NCBI GenBank assembly: GCA_005502445.1
Contig: SCPB01000002.1
Coordinates: 1-64,000, forward strand
DNA length: 64,000 nucleotides
From: Microbacteriaceae bacterium X2B
Lineage (GTDB): Bacteria > Actinomycetota > Actinomycetes > Actinomycetales > Microbacteriaceae
Direction of reading: 5' to 3'
The notes below the pieces were generated by a model. The model was given only the letters and a program-made list of their open reading frames with translations, was not told the origin of the DNA and searched no databases. The position numbers and the translations under genes are program-made. Below are positions 8,766 through 19,463 of the stretch, piece by piece. The first letter of the stretch is position 1. Every line of letters begins with the position of its first letter.

Positions 8766-9398
8766 GTGATCCCCGGCCCCGAGCTGCTCGCCTTCGTGCT
8801 GACCTCGATCGTCGTCATCGTCGTGCCGGGCCCGGGAGTGCTCTTCGTCATCGGGCGGGCGCTCGCCCTCGGCACCCGGGCCGCGGTGCTGAGCGTGCTC
8901 GGCAGCGCCGTCGGGGTATCGCTGCAGATCGTCGCGCTCGCGCTCGGCGTCGGCGTCGTCATCACCCAGTCGGAGCTGCTGTTCACGCTGTTGAAGGTGG
9001 CCGGGGCGCTCGTGCTCGCCTGGCTCGGTGTGCAGTCGATCCGGCACCGCGCCGACCTGGACGAGGGGGAGGTCGACCCCGTGGCGCCGCGAACGGCGAC
9101 GCTCGTGCGCGAGAGCGTCGCCGTCGGCATCACGAACCCCAAGACGATCGTCTTCTTCATCGCGGCGCTTCCGCAGGCCGTCGTACCGGAGGCCGGGCAG
9201 CCGGTCGTGCAGATGCTCGTGCTCGGCGCGATCTTCCTGGTCATGGGCGTCGTGAGCGATTCGCTCTACGGCATCGCCGCCGGTCAGGCACGCGCCTGGT
9301 TCGCCTCGAACGGGCGTCGCATCGCGGCGCTCCGCGTCGCGGGCGGCGTCGCGCTCATCGTGCTCGGCATCGTCATGGCGCTCGCCGCGCCCGCGTAG
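8766..9398 (+). CDS. LysE/RhtB-family amino acid exporter
   Basis: 210-residue inner membrane protein with five or six helices. The family signature is visible at the N-terminus (PGPGVLFVIGRALALGTRAAVLSVLGSAVG) and in helix 4 (GITNPKTIVFFIAALPQ). LysE/RhtB proteins export amino acids or related metabolites by proton antiport; the substrate cannot be deduced. GTG was chosen because it lies 6 nt after TAGCAT. Confidence 0.88.
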   Translation: MIPGPELLAFVLTSIVVIVVPGPGVLFVIGRALALGTRAAVLSVLGSAVGVSLQIVALALGVGVVITQSELLFTLLKVAGALVLAWLGVQSIRHRADLDEGEVDPVAPRTATLVRESVAVGITNPKTIVFFIAALPQAVVPEAGQPVVQMLVLGAIFLVMGVVSDSLYGIAAGQARAWFASNGRRIAALRVAGGVALIVLGIVMALAAPA

Positions 9399-9444: not shown

Positions 9445-9463
9445 TGAGGTTAGGCTACCCTGA
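9445..9463 (+). promoter_or_regulatory. predicted DtxR/IdeR iron box
   Basis: TGAGGTTAGGCTACCCTGA matches the DtxR/IdeR consensus TWAGGTWAGSCTWACCTWA at 16 of 19 positions, including the conserved GGTTAGGCT core. It is 46 bp before the ATG of the adenylation-acyltransferase fusion, a position suited to iron-dependent repression. Confidence 0.65.
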
Positions 9464-9508
9464 GTAAAGCGGCTCGAGCGAGTCGCGTCCGCCTCCCGAC
9501 TCAGGATC

Positions 9509-12235
9509 ATGACCTTCCTCTCCTCGCTGATCACCAGGCACCCCCGGGCTGACGAGCACCCGTTGCTCGCGGGGCGCGACGACGACACCGCGCTCGTGAC
9601 CGCGCGCGAGACGCTCAGCTATGCCGAGCTCAGGGCGCGCGTCGCCGAGCGGCGGGCACAGCTGGGCCACGACAGGCGGCTCGTACTGCTCGCGTGCCGA
9701 CGCGACATCGAGACCATCGTGAGCCTGCTCGCGGCCCTCGACGGGGGGCACCCGGTGATCCTCGTCGCGGAGGCTGCGGGGGGCGGCCGGGAGCCGAGCG
9801 CGCAGCGCGAGGCCATCCTCGACCGCTACCGGCCCGATGCGATGATCGAGCAGCGCGACGGCGCGACGACCATCGGCATCCGCGACGGCGGCGACCACGC
9901 CCTGCACCCGGACCTCGCCCTGCTGCTGAGCACCTCCGGCTCGACCGGATCGCCCAAGCTCGTCCGGCTCTCGCGTGACAATCTGCTGAGCAACGCGCGC
10001 AGCATCGCCGAATACCTCGACCTCACGCCGCGCGACCGCGGCGCGACGACGCTGCCGCTCAGCTACAGCTATGGGCTCTCGATCCTCACGAGCCACCTCG
10101 CCATCGGCGCGAGCGTGCTCGTCACCGACCGCTCGGTCGTCGACGACGAGTTCTGGCGCGAAGCGGCCGAGGCGGGCATCACCTCCCTCGCCGGCGTTCC
10201 GCACACCTTCGACCTCATCGAGGCCGCAGCGGCAGAGCCCTTCGCGCTGCCGAGCCTGCGCTGCATCACCCAGGCGGGTGGCCGGCTTGCGCCCGATCGG
10301 GTGCGGCGCTGGGCCCACGCGGCCGCCGTGCACGGCGTCGACTTCATCGTCATGTACGGCGCGACAGAGGCGACCGCGCGCATGGCATACCTGCCGCCCG
10401 GCCTCGCCGAGCGGAGGCCCCAGGCGATCGGCCGCGCCATCCCCGGCGGAGCGCTGCGCATCGACGCTCCCGACGTCGAGGGCGTCGGCGAGCTCGTCTA
10501 CACGGGCCCCAACGTGATGATGGGGTACGCCGAGTCCGCTGCCGATCTCGCGCGCGGCGCCGAATCGAGCGAGCTGCGCACGGGCGACCTCGCCCGCCGG
10601 GGCCCCGACGGACTGTTCGAGATCGTCGGCCGCGCGAGCCGCTTCGTGAAGCTCTACGGCCTGCGAGTCGACCTCGACCGCATCGAACGGCTGCTCGGCG
10701 AGGCTGGCTTCGAGGCGTACGCGGTCGAGCGCGAGCAGGGCATCCTGATCGGGGCTCTGCGAGAGGATGCGCCCGAGCGCGCCCCCGCTCTGCTGTCGCG
10801 CGCGACCGGCCTGCCGGCCCGCAGTTTCGGGGTCGTCGTGATCGAGTCGCTCGCGGTGACCTCGAGCGGCAAGCCGGACCGGTCGGCGCTGCGCCTGATC
10901 GCCGAGAGCGCCGCGCTGGCCGATGCCCCGCGCATCTCGGCCGACGCCGACGCCGTCGCCGTCGCCGACGCACTCGACGGCGCGACCGACGACGTGGCCG
11001 AAGCCGTGCGCGCGCTGCTCGCCACCGTGCTCGATCGGCCGGATGCGGGGGTCGACGACGGCTTCGCCTCGCTCGAGGGCGACTCGCTCTCGTACGTCGA
11101 GGTCGCCCTGCGGCTCGAACGGCTCATCGGTCCGCTGCCGCGCGACTGGCCGTCGTGCAGCGCGCGAGAACTCGCTGCGCTCGTGCCGACCGCTGCGCCG
11201 ACGCGGCCGTCGACCGGAACGCCCGCACGGGCCGAGGTGGCTGCGACGGCACCGTCATCGAGGGCGGATGACGCGCCGACGCGCCCGTCGCTGCGGCGGT
11301 CGCTGGGCGCCCTGCTCGCTCTCGCGCGCGTCGAGACCCCCGTCGTGCTGCGCGCGGTCGCGATCGTGCTCGTCGTCGGCACGCACGCCAACCTGCTCGG
11401 CGTGCAGGGCGGCGCGCACCTGCTGCTCGGGGTGCTCGGCTACAACCTCGCGCGGTTCCAGCTCGCGGCCGTGCGGCCGGCCCTCCGTGTGCGCAGCCTC
11501 CTGCGCGCTGCGGCGATGATCGCGGTGCCCGCAGTGCTGTGGATCGGCGGCGTGGCCCTCGCGACGGGAGCCTACGACCTGCCGACGGTCCTGCTGCTCA
11601 ACAGTGCGGTCTCCGACTCGGGCGCGTGGTCGACGCAATGGCGGTTCTGGTTCATCGAGGCAGCCGTCGGCGGGATCCTCGCGCTCGCGCTTCTCGCGGC
11701 CGTGCCCGCCCTGCACCGCGCCGAACGCCGCCGCCCCTTCACCGCAGCGCTCGTCGTCACCGCCGCGCTCATCTCCGTGCGTCTCGTCGCGCTCGGCGGC
11801 GTCACGGCGGGCCCCGTCGAGCGGTATCAGCTCGCGGGCGTCGCCTGGCTGCTCGCGCTCGGCTGGCTCGCCGCGCGCGCGACGAGCGGCGCCCAGCGCG
11901 CGGTCGTGTCGGTCGTCGCCGTCGTGGCGACGGTGGGCTTCTTCGGCGACCCGCTGCGCGAGGCGGTCGTGATCGTCGGTCTGCTCGTGCTGCTGTGGGT
12001 GCGAACGGTGCCCGTGCCGCGTCTCATCGTGCCGATCGTCGGGGTCGTGGCGTCGGCATCCCTCTTCGTCTACCTCGTGCACTGGGAGCTCTACCCGCTG
12101 CTCGAGGACGACGCGCCCCTCGCCGCGACCCTCCTGTCGTTCGCGGCGGGCGTCGCGGCGTGGTCGGTGTGGGGACTCGCGATGCGCTCGTCGCGACTCG
12201 CGCGCGGCCGGCGCCGCGCGGCCGATGCCGGTTAG
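9509..12235 (+). CDS. adenylation - carrier protein - acyltransferase-3 fusion protein
   Basis: 908 residues in three parts. (1) Residues 1-470: AMP-dependent ligase with TSGSTGSPK (142-150), YGATEATAR (283-291), RTGDLAR (357-363) and the catalytic lysine in SSGKPDRSA (Lys455). (2) About 485-560: carrier domain with GDSLS, phosphopantetheine site Ser526. (3) About 600-900: multi-helix membrane acyltransferase-3 domain with the Arg615-X10-His626 motif. It could activate a carboxylic acid, load it on its own carrier and pass the acyl group to a membrane or exported acceptor. The upstream iron box suggests expression in low iron, as for siderophore or envelope remodelling genes. Substrate and product are unknown. 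It is a single-gene unit, convergent with the next gene by 4 bp. Confidence 0.85.
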   Translation: MTFLSSLITRHPRADEHPLLAGRDDDTALVTARETLSYAELRARVAERRAQLGHDRRLVLLACRRDIETIVSLLAALDGGHPVILVAEAAGGGREPSAQREAILDRYRPDAMIEQRDGATTIGIRDGGDHALHPDLALLLSTSGSTGSPKLVRLSRDNLLSNARSIAEYLDLTPRDRGATTLPLSYSYGLSILTSHLAIGASVLVTDRSVVDDEFWREAAEAGITSLAGVPHTFDLIEAAAAEPFALPSLRCITQAGGRLAPDRVRRWAHAAAVHGVDFIVMYGATEATARMAYLPPGLAERRPQAIGRAIPGGALRIDAPDVEGVGELVYTGPNVMMGYAESAADLARGAESSELRTGDLARRGPDGLFEIVGRASRFVKLYGLRVDLDRIERLLGEAGFEAYAVEREQGILIGALREDAPERAPALLSRATGLPARSFGVVVIESLAVTSSGKPDRSALRLIAESAALADAPRISADADAVAVADALDGATDDVAEAVRALLATVLDRPDAGVDDGFASLEGDSLSYVEVALRLERLIGPLPRDWPSCSARELAALVPTAAPTRPSTGTPARAEVAATAPSSRADDAPTRPSLRRSLGALLALARVETPVVLRAVAIVLVVGTHANLLGVQGGAHLLLGVLGYNLARFQLAAVRPALRVRSLLRAAAMIAVPAVLWIGGVALATGAYDLPTVLLLNSAVSDSGAWSTQWRFWFIEAAVGGILALALLAAVPALHRAERRRPFTAALVVTAALISVRLVALGGVTAGPVERYQLAGVAWLLALGWLAARATSGAQRAVVSVVAVVATVGFFGDPLREAVVIVGLLVLLWVRTVPVPRLIVPIVGVVASASLFVYLVHWELYPLLEDDAPLAATLLSFAAGVAAWSVWGLAMRSSRLARGRRRAADAG

Positions 12236-12650: not shown

Positions 12651-14183
12651 CTACTTCTGCTCGAACACCTCTTTGTCCATGGCGTCGTAGCCCTCGGCCT
12701 GCGGGTCGCGGTGCAGTCCGCCGCTCAGGGCGTACTCCTCCTCGGGCGAGAGCACGAGCCGGTGCCGGCCCCAGACGGCGAAGCCGACGAGGATCAGGAT
12801 GTACACGATCGCGATCGCGAAGATCGCGGTCGTGAACGCGGGGTTCAGCAGGGTGCCGAGGAACACCAGCGCGGCGATTCCCGCGGCGATGTATGCGCCG
12901 GCCAGCCCCCAGGGGCTGACGTACGGCCGCTTGGCGTTCGGGAACTTCTTGCGCAGGATGATGAACGACACCATCTGCAGGAAGTACGCGAGCACGGCGC
13001 CCCAGACCGCGATGTTCAGCACGACCGCTCCGGCGACGCCGCCCGTGCCACCGGCCGCGTCGACGACGACGAGCGCGATGAAACCGATGACGGCACCGAC
13101 GACGAGAGCGACCCACGGGGTCTGCGCCTTGCCGGTGAGCGAGAAGTACCGCGGGTAGTAGCCGGCGCGCGACAGCGAGTACATGTTGCGCCCGTAGGCG
13201 AACATGATGCCCTGCAGCGAGGCGAGAAGGCCGATGAGCGCGAACAGCGCGAGCACGGCGGCGAGCTCGTCGCCGACCATCGCCCGGAACCCGTCGAGCA
13301 GCGGCTCGCCCGCCACGCCCGTCGCCTCGGCGCCGATGATGCCCGTGTTGAGGAACAGCACGAGCAGGCCGGTGACGATGAGCGTGCCGCGCGCGATGAA
13401 ACCGGCCCGGGGGATGTCGCGCTCGGGATTGTGCGCCTCCTCCGCCGCGAGCGGCAGCTCTTCGATACCCAGGAAGAACCACATCGCGAAGGGCAGCGCG
13501 AAGAGGATCGGCAGCACGCCGAAGGGCAGGAAGGTGCTCTGCCCCGCCTCGGGGGCGATGTCCCACAGCTTGTCCCACTGGAAGGCGCCCGTCGCGATCG
13601 CCATGACCGAGAAGAGCAGGATGATCGCGATCGCGATGATCGAGACGACGATCGCGAACCGGAACGAGATGTGCGCGCCGGCGGCGTTGAGGGCGATGAA
13701 CGCGACGTAGAGGACGATCCACCAGACCCACGCGAGGCCCTGCTCGTTGAGCGAGAACCCGGTGAGCGTCGCCATGATCGGGTCGGCGTACGCGGCCGAG
13801 AAGTAGACGATCACCGCCGTCGTCGCGACGTACTCGATGGTCTCGGCGACGCCCGTGACGAGGCCGCCCCACGGGCCCATCGCCGATCGTGCGAACGAGT
13901 AGGCGCCGCCCGTGTGGGGCATCGCCGACGACATCTCGCCGATCGAGAAGATGAGGCCGTAGTACATCGCGACGAGGATCACGAAGGCGATGAGCATGCC
14001 GCCGAATCCCGCGAAGTCGATGCCGAAGTTCCAGCCCGAGAAGTCGCCCGAGATCACCGCGGCGACGGCGAGGCCCCAGAGGCCCCACACTCCCGCCGAA
14101 CGGCGCAGTCCGCGCTTCTCGAAGTAGCCCTGGTCGACGCGGGTGTACGTGACACCGCCGGCCGCCTTGGTCGTTTCCGCCAT
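12651..14183 (-). CDS. eutP: APC-family amino acid/ethanolamine permease
   Basis: 510 residues with about 12 membrane helices. Sequence character (QGYFEKRGLRRSAGVWGLWGLAVAAVISGDFSGWN, IGEMSSAMPHTGGAYSFAR, EELPLAAEEAHNPERDIPRG-like loop) is that of the ethanolamine permease branch of the APC superfamily. ATG 14183 has an AGGAGG ribosome-binding site. It is divergent from a glutamine-synthetase-like gene and the rest of a catabolic cluster, so it probably brings in that pathway's amine substrate. Ethanolamine is the best guess; a polyamine is the alternative. The symbol is by similarity only. Confidence 0.8.
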   Translation of the reverse strand: MAETTKAAGGVTYTRVDQGYFEKRGLRRSAGVWGLWGLAVAAVISGDFSGWNFGIDFAGFGGMLIAFVILVAMYYGLIFSIGEMSSAMPHTGGAYSFARSAMGPWGGLVTGVAETIEYVATTAVIVYFSAAYADPIMATLTGFSLNEQGLAWVWWIVLYVAFIALNAAGAHISFRFAIVVSIIAIAIILLFSVMAIATGAFQWDKLWDIAPEAGQSTFLPFGVLPILFALPFAMWFFLGIEELPLAAEEAHNPERDIPRAGFIARGTLIVTGLLVLFLNTGIIGAEATGVAGEPLLDGFRAMVGDELAAVLALFALIGLLASLQGIMFAYGRNMYSLSRAGYYPRYFSLTGKAQTPWVALVVGAVIGFIALVVVDAAGGTGGVAGAVVLNIAVWGAVLAYFLQMVSFIILRKKFPNAKRPYVSPWGLAGAYIAAGIAALVFLGTLLNPAFTTAIFAIAIVYILILVGFAVWGRHRLVLSPEEEYALSGGLHRDPQAEGYDAMDKEVFEQK

Positions 14184-14403
14184 GCATTCCTCCTGGGGGG
14201 ATGGACATCAGTCCTGGGTGGACAGGGGTGGTGCTGTCGCGCGCATCGATGGCAGGGCGCTTCGGTGCGCTGTTGGAGTGAGCATGCCGCTAAAGGTGGC
14301 TTGTGTCCACCATTGACGGAAAGAATTAGTGAAGGGGCGGCCTCCCGTGCCGCGTCGCTGTGGTACTAATGGTCGAAACATCGCCAGCCAAGGGAGACTC
14401 GAG

Positions 14404-15783
14404 ATGACCGCAGCACCCTCCGGGATCCGGTCGGGCAACCTCACCGCCGACGAGCTCGAGTCGAGCATCCTGGCCGGCGAGATCGACACCGTCATCGTCG
14501 CCTTCACCGACATGCAGGGCCGGCTGATCGGCAAGCGCGTCTCGGCGCGACTGTTCAGCGAGGAGGTCGGACAGCACGGCGCCGAGTGCTGCAACTACCT
14601 GCTCGCGGTCGACGTCGAGAACAACACCGTGGGCGGCTACGCGATCTCGAGCTGGGAGCGCGGCTACGGCGACATGGTCATGCAGCCCGACCTCGACACG
14701 CTGCGGCTGATCCCATGGCTGCCCGGCACGGCCCTGGTGCTCGCCGACCTGCTCTTCCTCGACGGATCGCCCGTCGCGCCGAGCCCGCGGGCGATCCTGC
14801 GCACGCAGGTCGACCGGCTGGCCGAACGCGGACTCGTGCCCTACGTCGGCACCGAGCTCGAGTTCATCGTGTTCGACGACGGGTACCGAGACGCCTGGCG
14901 CAAGGGCTACCGCGACCTCACCCCGGCGAGCGACTACAACATCGACTACGCGCTCATGGCCTCGACGCGCATGGAGCCGCTGCTCCGCGACATCCGCCTC
15001 GGCATGGACGGCGCCGGGATGTACTGCGAGGGGGTCAAGGGCGAGTGCAATCACGGCCAGCAGGAGATCGCATTCCGCTACGCGCATGCGATCGCGACGT
15101 GCGACAACCACTCGATCTACAAGAACGGCGCGAAGGAGATCGCCGACGCGCACGGCAAGGCGCTCACCTTCATGGCGAAGTTCAACGAGCGCGAGGGCAA
15201 CAGCTGCCACATCCACCTGAGCGTGCGCGGCGCCGACGGCTCGCCCGTCATGGCCGGCGACGGCGACCACGGCTTCTCGCCGCTCATGGAGCACTGGCTC
15301 GCGGGCCAGATCGCGGCGATGCGCGAGCTGACGCTCTTCTTCGCGCCCTCGATCAACTCGTACAAGCGCTACGTCGAGGGCAGCTTCGCCCCGACCGCGA
15401 TCGCGTGGGGCTTCGACAACCGCACCTGCGCCCTGCGGGTCGTCGGTCACGGCCAGAGCCTGCGCGTCGAGAACCGCGTGCCGGGCGGTGACGTCAACCA
15501 GTACCTCGCGACCGCCGCGATCATCGCCGCCGGGCTGCACGGCATCGAGAACGAGTTGACCCTCGAGGAGGCCTTCGCGGGAAACGCGTACGCCTCGGAC
15601 AAGCCGAGGGTTCCCGCGAGCCTGCGCGAGGCCGCCGCGCTCTTCGCCGAATCCGAGATCGCCCGCGCGGCCTTCGGGCAGGATGTCGTGGACCACTACC
15701 TCAACATGGCGCGCGTCGAGCAGCAGGCCTTCGACGCCGCCATCACCGATTGGGAGCGCTACCGTGGCTTCGAACGATTCTGA
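14404..15783 (+). CDS. glutamine-synthetase-family gamma-glutamyl-amine ligase (GlnA4/PuuA-like)
   Basis: 459 residues from ATG 14404 (GGGAG ribosome-binding site); the upstream ATG at 14329 is not supported. The N-terminal FTDMQGRLIGKR, metal-binding GTELEF and HIHLS, and the C-terminal RVENRVPGG belong to type I glutamine synthetases. The divergent C-terminus (DHYLNMARVEQQAF) and neighbours place it among ligases that join glutamate to an amine instead of ammonia. With an ethanolamine-type permease and an SDR next to it, gamma-glutamylethanolamide formation, as by Streptomyces GlnA4, is the most coherent role; a polyamine role (PuuA, GlnA3) remains possible. First gene of a five-gene operon. 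Confidence 0.85.
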   Translation: MTAAPSGIRSGNLTADELESSILAGEIDTVIVAFTDMQGRLIGKRVSARLFSEEVGQHGAECCNYLLAVDVENNTVGGYAISSWERGYGDMVMQPDLDTLRLIPWLPGTALVLADLLFLDGSPVAPSPRAILRTQVDRLAERGLVPYVGTELEFIVFDDGYRDAWRKGYRDLTPASDYNIDYALMASTRMEPLLRDIRLGMDGAGMYCEGVKGECNHGQQEIAFRYAHAIATCDNHSIYKNGAKEIADAHGKALTFMAKFNEREGNSCHIHLSVRGADGSPVMAGDGDHGFSPLMEHWLAGQIAAMRELTLFFAPSINSYKRYVEGSFAPTAIAWGFDNRTCALRVVGHGQSLRVENRVPGGDVNQYLATAAIIAAGLHGIENELTLEEAFAGNAYASDKPRVPASLREAAALFAESEIARAAFGQDVVDHYLNMARVEQQAFDAAITDWERYRGFERF

Positions 15784-16522
15784 GACGGGCCGCCGCCCGC
15801 TCATCGGCCTCACGACCTACCTCGAGCAGGCGAAGACGGGCGTCTGGGACGTGCCGGCCGCCTTCCTGCCCAAGGTCTACTTCGAGGCGATCACCCGCGC
15901 CGGCGGCTCGGTCGTGCTGCTGCCGCCGCAGCCCGTCGACGAGGCCGTGGTCGATCGCATCCTCGACGCGGTCGACGGGCTGATCCTCACCGGAGGCAAG
16001 GACGTCGACGCGGCGCGCTACGGGCAGGTCGCGCACCCGAGCAACGACGTGCCGCGCACCGATCGCGACGACCTCGAGTTCGCGCTCCTGCAGCGCGCGA
16101 TCGAGCGCGACATCCCCTTCTTCGGCATCTGCCGCGGCCTGCAGGTGCTCAACGTGCTGCGCGGGGGCACGCTCATCCAGCACCTGCCCGAGGCCATCGG
16201 CAGCGACCGCTACAACGCCGGGGGAGGGGTGTTCACGCCCAACGCCGTGGCGACCGTGGCGGGGTCGCGACTGGCTCAGATCGTCGGCGAGCAGGTCACC
16301 GTGCAGAGCTACCACCACCAGGCGCTCGACGAGGTCGGCGAGGGGCTCACGGTGAGCGCTCGCGGTGACGACGACATCGTTCAGGCGGTCGATGTCGACG
16401 GTATGACCTTCGGCATCGCCGTGCAGTGGCACCCCGAGGAATCCCGCGACGATCTGCGACTGTTCGACGCTCTCGTCGAGGCTGCGCGCGACCACGCCGA
16501 GAGCCGCCAGGTGCGCGCGTGA
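15764..16522 (+). CDS. class I amidotransferase-type gamma-glutamyl hydrolase (PuuD-like)
   Basis: 252 residues from GTG 15764, which has GGGAG upstream and lies inside the 3' end of the ligase gene (20-bp overlap). The nucleophile motif is FGICRGLQVLNV and the His/Glu of the triad are in QWHPEE. PuuD hydrolyses gamma-glutamyl-GABA; here it would release glutamate from the oxidised gamma-glutamyl product and so recycle the glutamate handle. Its stop overlaps the next start (GTGA). Confidence 0.87.
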   Translation: MASNDSETGRRPLIGLTTYLEQAKTGVWDVPAAFLPKVYFEAITRAGGSVVLLPPQPVDEAVVDRILDAVDGLILTGGKDVDAARYGQVAHPSNDVPRTDRDDLEFALLQRAIERDIPFFGICRGLQVLNVLRGGTLIQHLPEAIGSDRYNAGGGVFTPNAVATVAGSRLAQIVGEQVTVQSYHHQALDEVGEGLTVSARGDDDIVQAVDVDGMTFGIAVQWHPEESRDDLRLFDALVEAARDHAESRQVRA

Positions 16523-17877
16523 GCGAGACGACGCTCGTCAACCCGGCCGACGAGACGGTCATCGGCACGGTCGCGCACACCTCGCTCGAGGAGGTCGACG
16601 CCGCCGTCGAGCGCGCCGTGCGCGCGCAGCGCGACTGGGCGGCGCTCGCCCCGGCCGACCGGGGGCGCGCGCTGCGGCGCTTCGCCGCCGCCGTCGACGC
16701 CCACGTCGACGAGCTCGCCCTGCTCGAGGTCCGCAACTCGGGCCACCCGATCGGCCAGGCGCGATGGGAGGCGGGCCACGTTCGCGACGTGCTCGAGTAC
16801 TACAGCGGCGCGCCCGAGCGGCTGATCGGCCAGCAGATCCCCGTCGCGGGCGGCATCGACGTCACCTTCCACGAGCCGCTCGGCGTCATCGGCGTCATCG
16901 TGCCCTGGAACTTCCCCATGACGATCGCGAGCTGGGGCTTCGCGCCGGCGCTCGCCGCGGGCAACGCCGTGCTGCTCAAGCCCGCCGACTGGACGCCCCT
17001 CACGGCGATCCGCCTCGGGGAGCTCGCGCTCGAGTCGGGACTGCCCGACGGCCTCTTCCAGGTGCTGCCCGGGCGCGGCTCGGTCGTCGGCGAGCGCTTC
17101 GTCACGCACGAGAAGGTGCGCAAGATCGTCTTCACCGGCTCGACCGAGGTCGGCAAGCGCGTCATGGCCGGATGCTCGGCTCAGGTCAAGCCCGTGACGC
17201 TCGAGCTCGGCGGCAAGAGCGCGAACATCGTCTTCGCCGACGCCGACCTCGAGGCCGCGGCGGCCGGAGCGCCCGGCTCGGTGTTCGACAACGCCGGGCA
17301 GGACTGCTGCGCGCGCAGCCGGCTGCTCGTCGAGCGCAGCGTGCTCGACCGCTTCCTCGAGCTGCTCGAGCCGGCCGTGCGGGCTTTTCGCGTCGGCGAC
17401 CCGCTCGACGAGTCGGTCGAGATGGGCCCGCTCGTCTCGCGCGAGCACCACGTGAGCGTCTCGTCCTTCCTCGACGACGGCGCCCGCGTCGCCTTCCGCG
17501 GCAGTGCGCCCGACGGCCCTGGATTCTGGTTCGCGCCGACCGTGCTGCTGCCCGAGCGCGCCGACCGCGTCGCGACGGAGGAGATCTTCGGCCCCGTCGT
17601 CTCGGTGCTGCCCTTCGATGACGAGGCCGACGCGATCGCCCTCGCCAACGACTCGATCTACGGACTGTCCGGCTCCATCTGGACCCGCGACCTCGGCCGC
17701 GGAATCCGCGTCGCGCGCGCCGTCGACAGCGGCAACCTGAGCGTCAACTCGCACTCCTCCGTGCGCTACGCGACCCCGTTCGGCGGGTTCAAGCAGAGCG
17801 GACTCGGGCGCGAGCTGGGGCCGGATGCTCCGCTCGCCTTCACCGAGACCAAGAACGTCTTCTTCTCGCACGCCTAA
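16519..17877 (+). CDS. NAD(P)-dependent aldehyde dehydrogenase
   Basis: 452 residues from GTG 16519 (GTGA overlap with the previous stop). Typical ALDH landmarks in order are VPWNFPM, FTGSTEVGK, the catalytic Glu in ELGGKSANIV, the nucleophile in NAGQDCC, and EIFGPVVSVLPF. In this operon it probably oxidises the gamma-glutamyl aldehyde made by the SDR to the acid. The N-terminus is slightly short, but all core motifs are present. Confidence 0.9.
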   Translation: MSETTLVNPADETVIGTVAHTSLEEVDAAVERAVRAQRDWAALAPADRGRALRRFAAAVDAHVDELALLEVRNSGHPIGQARWEAGHVRDVLEYYSGAPERLIGQQIPVAGGIDVTFHEPLGVIGVIVPWNFPMTIASWGFAPALAAGNAVLLKPADWTPLTAIRLGELALESGLPDGLFQVLPGRGSVVGERFVTHEKVRKIVFTGSTEVGKRVMAGCSAQVKPVTLELGGKSANIVFADADLEAAAAGAPGSVFDNAGQDCCARSRLLVERSVLDRFLELLEPAVRAFRVGDPLDESVEMGPLVSREHHVSVSSFLDDGARVAFRGSAPDGPGFWFAPTVLLPERADRVATEEIFGPVVSVLPFDDEADAIALANDSIYGLSGSIWTRDLGRGIRVARAVDSGNLSVNSHSSVRYATPFGGFKQSGLGRELGPDAPLAFTETKNVFFSHA

Positions 17878-17887
17878 GGAGCACAGC

Positions 17888-18676
17888 ATGCCCATCACCC
17901 CCATCGATCTCACCCGCCGACTCGGCGGCAAGGTCGCCGTGATCACCGGCGGCGCGAGCGGCATCGGCTTCGCGACGGCGAAGCGCTTCGCGGCCGAAGG
18001 AGCGCACGTCGTCATCGGCGACATGAACCCCGCGACCGGCGAGGCGGCGGCCGCCGAGGTCGGCGGGCTGTTCGTCGCGGTCGACGTGACCGACGAGGCG
18101 CAGGTCAACCACCTCTTCGACACGGCGCAGAAGACCTACGGCTCGCTCGACATCGCCTTCAACAACGCCGGCATCTCGCCGCCCGACGACGACTCGATCG
18201 AGACGACCGAGCTGCCGGCGTGGAACAAGGTGCAGGACGTCAACCTCACGAGCGTCTACCTCTGCTCGCGCGCCGCGCTGCGGCACATGGTCGCGCAGCA
18301 GTCGGGCTCGATCATCAACACGGCCTCCTTCGTCGCGGTCATGGGCAGCGCCACGAGTCAGATCTCGTACACGGCCTCGAAGGGCGGAGTGCTCGCGATG
18401 ACGCGCGAGCTCGGCGTGCAGTTCGCCCGTCAGGGGATCCGCGTCAATGCCCTCTGCCCGGGCCCGGTCAACACGCCGCTGCTGCAGGAGCTCTTCGCGA
18501 AAGACCCCGAGCGAGCCCAACGCCGGCTCGTGCACATCCCGAAGGGGCGTTTCGCCGAGGCCGAGGAGCTCGCGGCGGCGGTCGCCTTCCTCGCGAGCGA
18601 CGACGCCTCGTTCATCACCGGATCGACCTTCCTCGTCGATGGCGGCATCAGCGCCGCGTACGTGACGCCGCTCTGA
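17888..18676 (+). CDS. short-chain dehydrogenase/reductase
   Basis: 262 residues from ATG 17888 with AAGGAG upstream. Classical SDR: TGGASGIG cofactor loop, NNAGIS, the active-site YTASK (Tyr-X3-Lys), and the C-terminal SSDDASFITG-like substrate region. An alcohol-oxidising SDR in a gamma-glutamylation cluster fits a hydroxyl-bearing substrate such as gamma-glutamylethanolamide, not a putrescine derivative, whose pathway needs a flavin amine oxidase. It is co-transcribed with the ALDH 10 bp upstream. Confidence 0.88.
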   Translation: MPITPIDLTRRLGGKVAVITGGASGIGFATAKRFAAEGAHVVIGDMNPATGEAAAAEVGGLFVAVDVTDEAQVNHLFDTAQKTYGSLDIAFNNAGISPPDDDSIETTELPAWNKVQDVNLTSVYLCSRAALRHMVAQQSGSIINTASFVAVMGSATSQISYTASKGGVLAMTRELGVQFARQGIRVNALCPGPVNTPLLQELFAKDPERAQRRLVHIPKGRFAEAEELAAAVAFLASDDASFITGSTFLVDGGISAAYVTPL

Positions 18677-18725
18677 GCGCCCGCCACGACATCCTCGAGA
18701 CCGCCGTCGACCGTCTGCTCCGTCC

Positions 18726-19463
18726 ATGACCGACACCGCTGCAGCACCGCCGCCCGAGGGGCTCGCGCTCGGTGCGCTCAACCGGCCCGTGCGCGGCGGC
18801 AACGCCTTCGAGGAGACGCTCGCGCGCCTGCTGCAGCTGATCCGCCTCGGCATCGTGCCGCCGGGGGAGGCCCTCCTGCCCGAGCGCGAGCTCGCCGCGC
18901 GGCTCGAGGTCAGTCGCGACACCGTGCGCGAGGCCATCCGGTCGCTCGTCGAGGCCGGCTACGTCGAGTCGCGGCGCGGACGCTACGGCGGCACCTTCGT
19001 CTGCGAGCCGCTGCCGCACCCGGAGGAGGGGCCGGGGCCGCGCGTCTCGCCGGACGAGGTGCGCGACGTTCTCGTCGTGCGCGACGTGCTCGAAGTGGGG
19101 GCGGCACGCGCCGCGGCATCCACGCCCCTGACGGCGGCGCAGCGCGACGACCTCGCCACGCGCATGCGCGAGGTCGCGGAAGCGGACGGCGCCGACTACC
19201 GCCGGCTCGACTCGCGCCTGCACCTGACGATCGCCGAGCTCGCCGGAAGCCCGACGCTCGTCACGCACCTGGCCGACAACCGGATGCGGGTCAACTCGCT
19301 GCTCGACCGGATCCCGCTGCTGCCGCGCAACATCCAGCACTCGAACGAACAGCACGAGCGCATCGTGTGGGCCGTGCTGAGCGGGGACGCCGACGGTGCG
19401 GCCGCCGCCACGGCCGAGCACCTCGAGGGCACGGCATCGCTGCTGCGCGGCTTCCTCGCCTGA
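18726..19463 (+). CDS. GntR-family regulator, FadR/FCD type
   Basis: 245 residues. N-terminal winged helix (LPERELAARLEVSRDTVREAIRSLVEAGYVESRRGRYGG) and an all-helical FCD ligand-binding domain ([42 protein letters not shown]). Last gene of the cluster, 49 bp after the SDR, so it is likely the pathway-specific repressor and acts at the divergent permease/ligase promoter. The operator there was not identified with confidence. Confidence 0.87.
   Translation: MTDTAAAPPPEGLALGALNRPVRGGNAFEETLARLLQLIRLGIVPPGEALLPERELAARLEVSRDTVREAIRSLVEAGYVESRRGRYGGTFVCEPLPHPEEGPGPRVSPDEVRDVLVVRDVLEVGAARAAASTPLTAAQRDDLATRMREVAEADGADYRRLDSRLHLTIAELAGSPTLVTHLADNRMRVNSLLDRIPLLPRNIQHSNEQHERIVWAVLSGDADGAAAATAEHLEGTASLLRGFLA

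Follow-up and report, generated by a model that had tools for sequence, protein, structure and literature searches.

A fusion gene behind a predicted iron box

We analysed a 64-kb stretch of DNA from Microbacteriaceae bacterium X2B, here called the window, in which one gene encodes an adenylation domain, a carrier domain and a membrane acyltransferase-3 (AT3) domain in a single polypeptide, behind a DtxR/IdeR-type iron box. The features with which we are mainly concerned are as follows, with the basis of each assignment in brackets.

9445..9463, + strand: predicted DtxR/IdeR-type iron box, 16/19 (consensus match, weight matrix, orthologue boxes)
9509..12235, + strand: adenylation-carrier-AT3 fusion gene, 908 amino acids, ATG start, stop included (open reading frame list, Pfam)
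9575..10882, + strand: adenylation (AMP-ligase) domain, about residues 23-458 (PF00501, PDB matches, AlphaFold model)
10379..10381, + strand: pocket Arg291 (phmmer alignment to 3wv4, VinN Arg331)
10871-10873, + strand: codon of catalytic Lys455 (within the PF00501 domain)
11000..11188, + strand: carrier (phosphopantetheine) domain, about residues 498-560 (PF00550)
11084-11086, + strand: codon of carrier Ser526 (within the PF00550 domain)
11318..12184, + strand: Acyltransferase-3/TmAT membrane domain, residues 604-892 (PF01757, model, VIA-align, residue counts)
11351-11353 and 11384-11386, + strand: Arg615 and His626 of an R-X10-H motif in the membrane domain, which also has Ser851-X3-Tyr855

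Pfam places the domains in the order PF00501, PF00550, PF01757, with AMP-binding matched over residues 23-340 (131.9 bits, cut-off 29.9), PP-binding over residues 498-539 (25.2 bits, cut-off 20.8) and Acyl_transf_3 over residues 613-882 (31.3 bits, cut-off 31.0). A preliminary description of the locus had proposed a complete AMP ligase, a carrier and a membrane acyltransferase-3 domain in one 908-residue protein. This is borne out by Pfam, Lys455, Ser526, Arg615 and His626 all lying where it had put them, and for the membrane domain also by an HGSNAT-like predicted transmembrane fold (below). Within the 908 residues Pfam detects neither a condensation nor a thioesterase domain.

The box reads TGAGGTTAGGCTACCCTGA and agrees at 16/19 positions with TWAGGTTAGSCTAACCTWA, the DtxR/IdeR consensus that was used for scoring. 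It is the sole match with three or fewer mismatches in the window, and none of 100 shuffles contained one. When scored with a weight matrix built on 37 orthologue sites, the window's own site left out, the box reaches 23.5 (training sites 15.8-32.1), and everything else in the window falls below 9. The 16/19 match first described was reproduced by these scans, the gap from box to ATG being 45 bp rather than the 46 bp originally given. Between 9350 and 9560 we detected neither a consensus sigma-70 promoter nor a terminator.

The enzyme and its iron box are conserved in Actinobacteria

Orthologues were collected in two ways. One was a collection scan limited to the best 80 of 349, which added 80 loci, most of them from Actinobacteria (Microbacteriaceae, Nocardioides, Mycobacterium, Nocardia, Arthrobacter, Parafrankia and others); the nearest named loci among these 80 are from Microcella/Yonghaparkia, at 65% and 64% identity, and on this basis the window's genome is placed near that group within the Microbacteriaceae. 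A scan of 296 sampled Actinomycetes genomes gave 50 matches at E ≤ 1e-60, from which G278, G292, G326 and G355 were dropped as they matched in the ligase part only, so that 46/296 genomes carry the gene, the window's included. The other 45 loci, each with some 6.5 kb of flanking sequence to either side (L215 is shorter, at a contig end), form the class-wide set. Among Microbacteriaceae, the enzyme is present in 9/199 genomes.

It can be seen from an 81-sequence alignment, which includes the window's protein, that Lys455 (81), Ser526 (81), Arg615 (80) and His626 (81) are conserved, and Arg291, Lys455, Ser526, Arg615, His626, Ser851 and Tyr855 are kept in 45/45 class-wide sequences. At one locus from Naasia (L028) the enzyme lies inside a 1755-residue open frame; this is probably no fusion, because a divergent importer lies upstream and homology gives a gene of about 860 residues. 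Outside Actinobacteria, adenylation-carrier-AT3 genes of about 850-885 residues occur in the Alphaproteobacteria Leisingera, Rhizobium etli, Sinorhizobium meliloti and Paracoccus (L169-L172), that of R. etli lying near curli genes.

Upstream sites were scored over 250 bp at 84 orthologue loci (the first set), with 745 other predicted genes of the same loci as controls, their starts taken from a simple open reading frame caller. A site of at least 14/19 was found upstream of 44/84 orthologues against 10/745 control genes, and one of at least 13/19 upstream of 55/84 against 10/745; the best upstream site at locus L006, for example, is 16/19. In the class-wide set, which has two near-identical rows in common with the first-set orthologues, the gene has its own upstream site of at least 13/19 in 31/45 loci and of at least 14/19 in 29/45. 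Of the 14 loci without a site of their own, 13 have fbp genes ahead of the enzyme on the same strand, and at 11 of these 13 fbpA is preceded by a site of at least 14. Conservation of the box upstream of orthologues, on which the preliminary description had staked its proposal of iron control, was found in both sets. There are two PF02742 matches, that is, DtxR-family regulators, in the window's genome. Taken with the importer linkage described next, the conserved boxes suggest that DtxR/IdeR would repress the gene when iron is present.

The enzyme is linked to a ferric-iron importer

Many orthologues have as neighbours the genes of a lipoprotein, an ATPase and a fused permease. Among solved structures the lipoprotein matches those of ferric-binding proteins, the best being 8k7n (1.5e-115) and SfuA (4.4e-112), followed by YfuA, HitA and FbpA. 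We found an FbpA-type gene within 6.5 kb of the enzyme in 37/45 class-wide loci, where it is upstream on the same strand (16), downstream and convergent (10), divergent (6) or downstream on the same strand (5), and such linkage is also seen in 39/80 loci of the collection scan (best 80 of 349). Several of the divergent pairs share one box, since the sites upstream of enzyme and importer are reverse complements. On a quick tree of 47 sequences, in which 14/44 inner branches are open, at least 14 changes of arrangement, at least eight of adjacency and at least five of FbpA subfamily are needed, and the link between enzyme and importer has therefore been re-made, or kept, through many rearrangements.

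On plasmids of Mycolicibacterium and Rhodococcus the four genes stand together and either one unit or each of the two is preceded by a box of 14-16, and on a Pseudarthrobacter plasmid the enzyme is alone behind a box of 16. In the RefSeq-derived annotation of three plasmid records, an 'AMP-binding protein' adjoins 'iron ABC transporter' genes, and in the three plasmid cassettes no further biosynthetic gene is annotated beside the enzyme. The Mycolicibacterium and Rhodococcus cassettes (L166, L168) lie near ArsR/SmtB regulators and P-type metal ATPases.

In the window's own genome the importer is on another contig (C69; binding protein 85325-86329, permease 83702-85204, ATPase adjoining), where it has an upstream box with a matrix score of 23.0 and its binding protein matches 7w3w at 3.3e-76. 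The binding protein occurs in 9/9 of the Microbacteriaceae genomes with the enzyme, compared with 45/199 overall (hypergeometric 8e-7, uncorrected for within-genus kinship), and by genus in 6/6 compared with 24/85 (3e-4, likewise uncorrected). The preliminary description had called the enzyme a self-contained machine, a view that is not supported, given the linkage in 37/45 class-wide loci and the iron-boxed importer elsewhere in the window's genome. We conclude that iron regulation and partnership with the importer are well supported.

The same genome has, on contig C48 (11000-17405; L133), genes for Peripla_BP_2, FecCD, an ABC ATPase and a siderophore-interacting protein with strong iron boxes (scores 34.4 and 26.3). 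By its gene content this is a predicted siderophore-uptake locus, though the genome yielded no synthetase of the IucA/IucC type.

The adenylation pocket suggests an acid without an amino group

By motif alignment, the pocket reads Ser/Cys/Val-Tyr-Ser-Ala-Thr-Ala-Met-Ala-Arg-Lys, some positions being variable. Position 235 in GrsA numbering, assigned by the same alignment, corresponds to residue 187 of the window's protein, which is Ser at a position that usually reads the amino group. Asp is absent from this position in all 81 aligned sequences (Cys 79, Ser 2) and in all 45 class-wide ones (Cys 34, Val 9, Ser 2), and we rejected an amino-acid-specific adenylation domain on this ground. Cys187 was also rejected as a family signature, the window having Ser and 9/45 class-wide sequences Val.

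Arg291 is invariant (81/81 and 45/45). In the stretch around motif A5, VinN (3wv4, phmmer, 1.5e-9) is the top match in the PDB, and its Lys330-Arg331 align with Ala290-Arg291. VinN Arg331 has been proposed, in passages of PMC7756342 and PMC11253843, to read the alpha-carboxylate of 3-methylaspartate, and the related AfcQ is dealt with in a passage of PMC12186527. The match of Arg291 to this residue, together with the missing Asp, therefore suggests a substrate that carries a second carboxylate and has no alpha-amino group. Most of the pocket, including the Arg, is also common to stand-alone ligases in polysaccharide loci of Parabacteroides (L173:7884-9275) and Deinococcus (L174:6386-7795); with the same Arg in the alphaproteobacterial relatives as well, we no longer take it as proof of a dicarboxylic substrate.

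The carrier matches PF00550 and has its Ser in a GDSL-type motif (Ser526 in 81/81 and 45/45). Its phosphopantetheinyl transferase may be AcpS, because the only PF01648 match in the window's genome (contig C3, 17480-17755) is in an AcpS-sized frame of 125 residues.

A probable TmAT-type membrane domain

The membrane domain alone was modelled at a mean pLDDT (predicted local distance difference test) of 96. VIA-align matched the model to human HGSNAT, a transmembrane acyltransferase, at Z 13.9 (root-mean-square deviation 5.0 over 258 residues), a value close to that which chance can give a mainly helical model according to the tool's own note, and to GWT1 at Z 9.0; the next rows are apolipoprotein N-acyltransferases at Z 5.4 and lower. 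A fold search with the whole protein matched the adenylation domain and nothing else. The Naasia orthologue scores 32.3 against PF01757.

The R-X10-H motif of the first helix is conserved (R615 80/81, H626 81/81, both 45/45 class-wide), as is SxxxY in helix 9 (S851 81/81, Y855 79/81, both 45/45). Some R..R is found in helix 3 in 65/81 sequences, a single register of RxxR accounting for at most 41. Since only TmAT members top the VIA-align list, and in view of the R-X10-H and SxxxY motifs, the model suggests that this is likely to be a TmAT-type transmembrane acyltransferase.

According to section 6 of PMC12423673, the conserved residues of known TmAT members hold acyl-CoA; the same section notes that GWT1 also lacks DxxR and that the DxxR Asp is dispensable in OacB. 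Because these residues hold acyl-CoA elsewhere, we infer that the loss of the DxxR Asp from the present family and its unfixed RxxR fit a donor delivered by the carrier.

Neighbouring genes

The gene is flanked by two others:

8766..9398, + strand: LysE-type exporter, upstream neighbour (PF01810)
12651-14183, - strand: amino-acid permease, downstream neighbour (Pfam)

Neither is a siderophore gene, which agrees with what had first been said of the surroundings. The exporter was considered as a partner and rejected, as the families that cluster most commonly near orthologues include no LysE-type gene. After the permease, and up to 19463, there are open reading frames that by eye resemble a glutamine-synthetase-like enzyme, a PuuD-like hydrolase, an aldehyde dehydrogenase, a short-chain dehydrogenase and a GntR-type regulator, and 12651-19463 is perhaps a polyamine-use cluster.

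A proposed role in ferric-iron uptake and its alternatives

The reading that we put forward, with our confidence evenly balanced, is that this is an iron-starvation enzyme that partners an FbpABC-type ferric importer. Iron-loaded DtxR/IdeR would repress the gene, and in iron shortage the enzyme would be made along with FbpABC. Its adenylation domain would activate a small carboxylic acid that bears no alpha-amino group, perhaps a dicarboxylic or hydroxy-dicarboxylic acid drawn from central metabolism. The acid would be loaded on the carrier within the same polypeptide, and the phosphopantetheine arm of the carrier would pass it as an acyl group to the TmAT-fold domain at the C terminus. This domain would then move the acyl group through the membrane to an acceptor outside, as its family membership suggests, and the product, which would most probably be an iron binder outside the cytoplasm or a group on the cell surface, would capture Fe3+ and pass it to FbpA.

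An iron ligand formed outside is the most economical reading of an outward transferase that accompanies FbpABC. With a product formed outside the cell no exporter would be needed, and this would account for the small size of the four-gene set. Since the cassettes lack genes for making either the acid or the acceptor, each of the two is expected to be a common metabolite or a component of the surface. The identity of the acid, that of the acceptor and the binding of iron are what we infer.

Several observations weigh against this proposal. With regard to iron, 3/45 class-wide loci (L192, L202 and L203) have neither a box of their own of at least 13 nor an upstream fbp box of at least 14, 8/45 have no importer within reach, and NCBIfam puts no importer part in a ferric family above cut-off, the best names being phosphonate, molybdate and polyamine, all sub-threshold. 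Outside Actinobacteria the architecture is not tied to iron: the four alphaproteobacterial genes have no annotated fbp genes in the fetched stretches, that of Paracoccus ending about 650 bp past the gene. With regard to the enzyme, the PF01757 match clears its cut-off by 0.3 bits, a Foldseek search with the membrane domain returned nothing at E ≤ 0.001, HGSNAT surfacing in the second look with VIA-align only, at the chance-prone score given above, and the DxxR Asp of helix 1 is present in 0/81 and 0/45 sequences. The equivalent of Arg291 is a trait of the wider family, because it is also found in the polysaccharide-locus ligases and the alphaproteobacterial adenylation-carrier-AT3 proteins. 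Besides the PF01648 match in the 125-residue frame, the window's genome has no separate Sfp-type match.

The main rival, which we think unlikely yet deserving of serious attention, is envelope remodelling, in which a wall glycan, a teichoic-type polymer or a lipid is acylated under iron shortage, as by a one-chain Dlt or OatA, and a change in charge or permeability lets Fe3+ reach FbpA with no iron ligand being made. AT3 proteins mostly acylate extracytoplasmic glycans according to passages of PMC9558356 and PMC9833829, and the alphaproteobacterial relatives standing alone, one of them near curli genes, and the ligase-domain relatives in polysaccharide loci would suit such a role. However, it does not readily explain why the enzyme has kept company with a ferric importer despite 14 or more rearrangements. 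This recurrent and strong linkage also speaks against an ordinary acyl-carrier-protein ligase and acyltransferase, for example in an iron-sparing lipid pathway, with co-regulation alone behind the box and the linkage. The breadth of the family would allow such a function, which we nevertheless consider improbable.

Acylation of a protein, whether FbpA, which is a lipoprotein, or some other iron carrier at the surface, would account for the steady company of fbpA (37/45) and for the predicted outward transfer, but the enzyme is paired with two FbpA subfamilies and at least five switches between them, and we regard this target as very improbable. We hold equally little belief in an accessory loading module for an ordinary siderophore assembly line encoded elsewhere: the iron box and the adenylation-carrier pair would suit one, but the window's genome has no IucA/IucC-type synthetase that we could find and no second similar adenylation protein (best other match 31% over 114 residues), and the plasmid cassettes have no other biosynthetic gene beside the enzyme, no genome-wide condensation-domain search having been made. 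A siderophore non-ribosomal peptide synthetase was rejected for want of a condensation domain in the protein and of IucA/IucC in the window's genome.

Returning to the proposed partnership with FbpABC, we tentatively suggest, with somewhat less than even confidence, that Actinobacteria have a new kind of ferric uptake system, encoded by a cassette of four genes that is in part plasmid-borne. A single chain would activate and carry an acid common in metabolism and, by way of a TmAT domain fed by the carrier, flip it outward to build a chelator or a surface trap for iron just outside the cell, from which FbpABC would collect the iron with neither assembly line nor exporter. If this is true, about one in six sampled Actinomycetes genomes (46/296) would have an iron-uptake system that is likely to have been missed by mining for condensation domains or IucA/IucC-type synthetases. 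It would also extend AT3/TmAT donors from acyl-CoA to a fused carrier, and point to the way in which soluble Fe3+ reaches FbpABC in Gram-positive bacteria.

Comparison with known systems

The partner binding proteins match the structures of SfuA, YfuA, FbpA and HitA, and the importer is in this respect like the FbpABC/SfuABC systems of Serratia, Haemophilus and Neisseria. To our knowledge, no adenylation-carrier-acyltransferase enzyme belongs to any described system of this type. Siderophore synthetases of the non-ribosomal type share adenylation and carrier domains and an iron box with the present enzyme, which differs from them in having no condensation or thioesterase domain and in occurring in cassettes without an extra biosynthetic gene. 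In the Dlt system, the ligase DltA, the carrier DltC and the MBOAT-type membrane acyltransferase DltB activate an acid, load it and transfer it outward. The same three steps are proposed here; unlike Dlt, the present enzyme is one chain, has a PF01757/TmAT-type rather than an MBOAT-type domain, is predicted to be controlled by iron and has no Asp at position 235. With VinN-type adenylation enzymes it shares the best PDB match around A5 and the aligned pocket Arg, whereas VinN Asp230, which holds the amino group, is replaced by Ser, Cys or Val in the present family.

The membrane domain is like the AT3/TmAT proteins OafB, OatA, HGSNAT and GWT1 in its R-X10-H and SxxxY motifs and probably, to judge from the model, in a ten-helix-type fold resembling HGSNAT. 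It differs in having a fused loading enzyme and carrier and no DxxR Asp; known members draw acyl-CoA from the cytosol, as described in parts of PMC9558356 and PMC12423673. The passages on fusions in the AT3 review (PMC9558356) name those with SGNH and alanine-racemase domains and none with an AMP-binding or phosphopantetheine domain, of which term counts for the review likewise gave no sign, and the relevant part of the Arthrobacter Rue61a paper describes SfuABC-like genes with no mention of such an enzyme. The open-licence PMC literature, when searched, yielded no account of such an enzyme together with FbpABC. We conclude that the parts are of known kinds and that their combination appears to be new.

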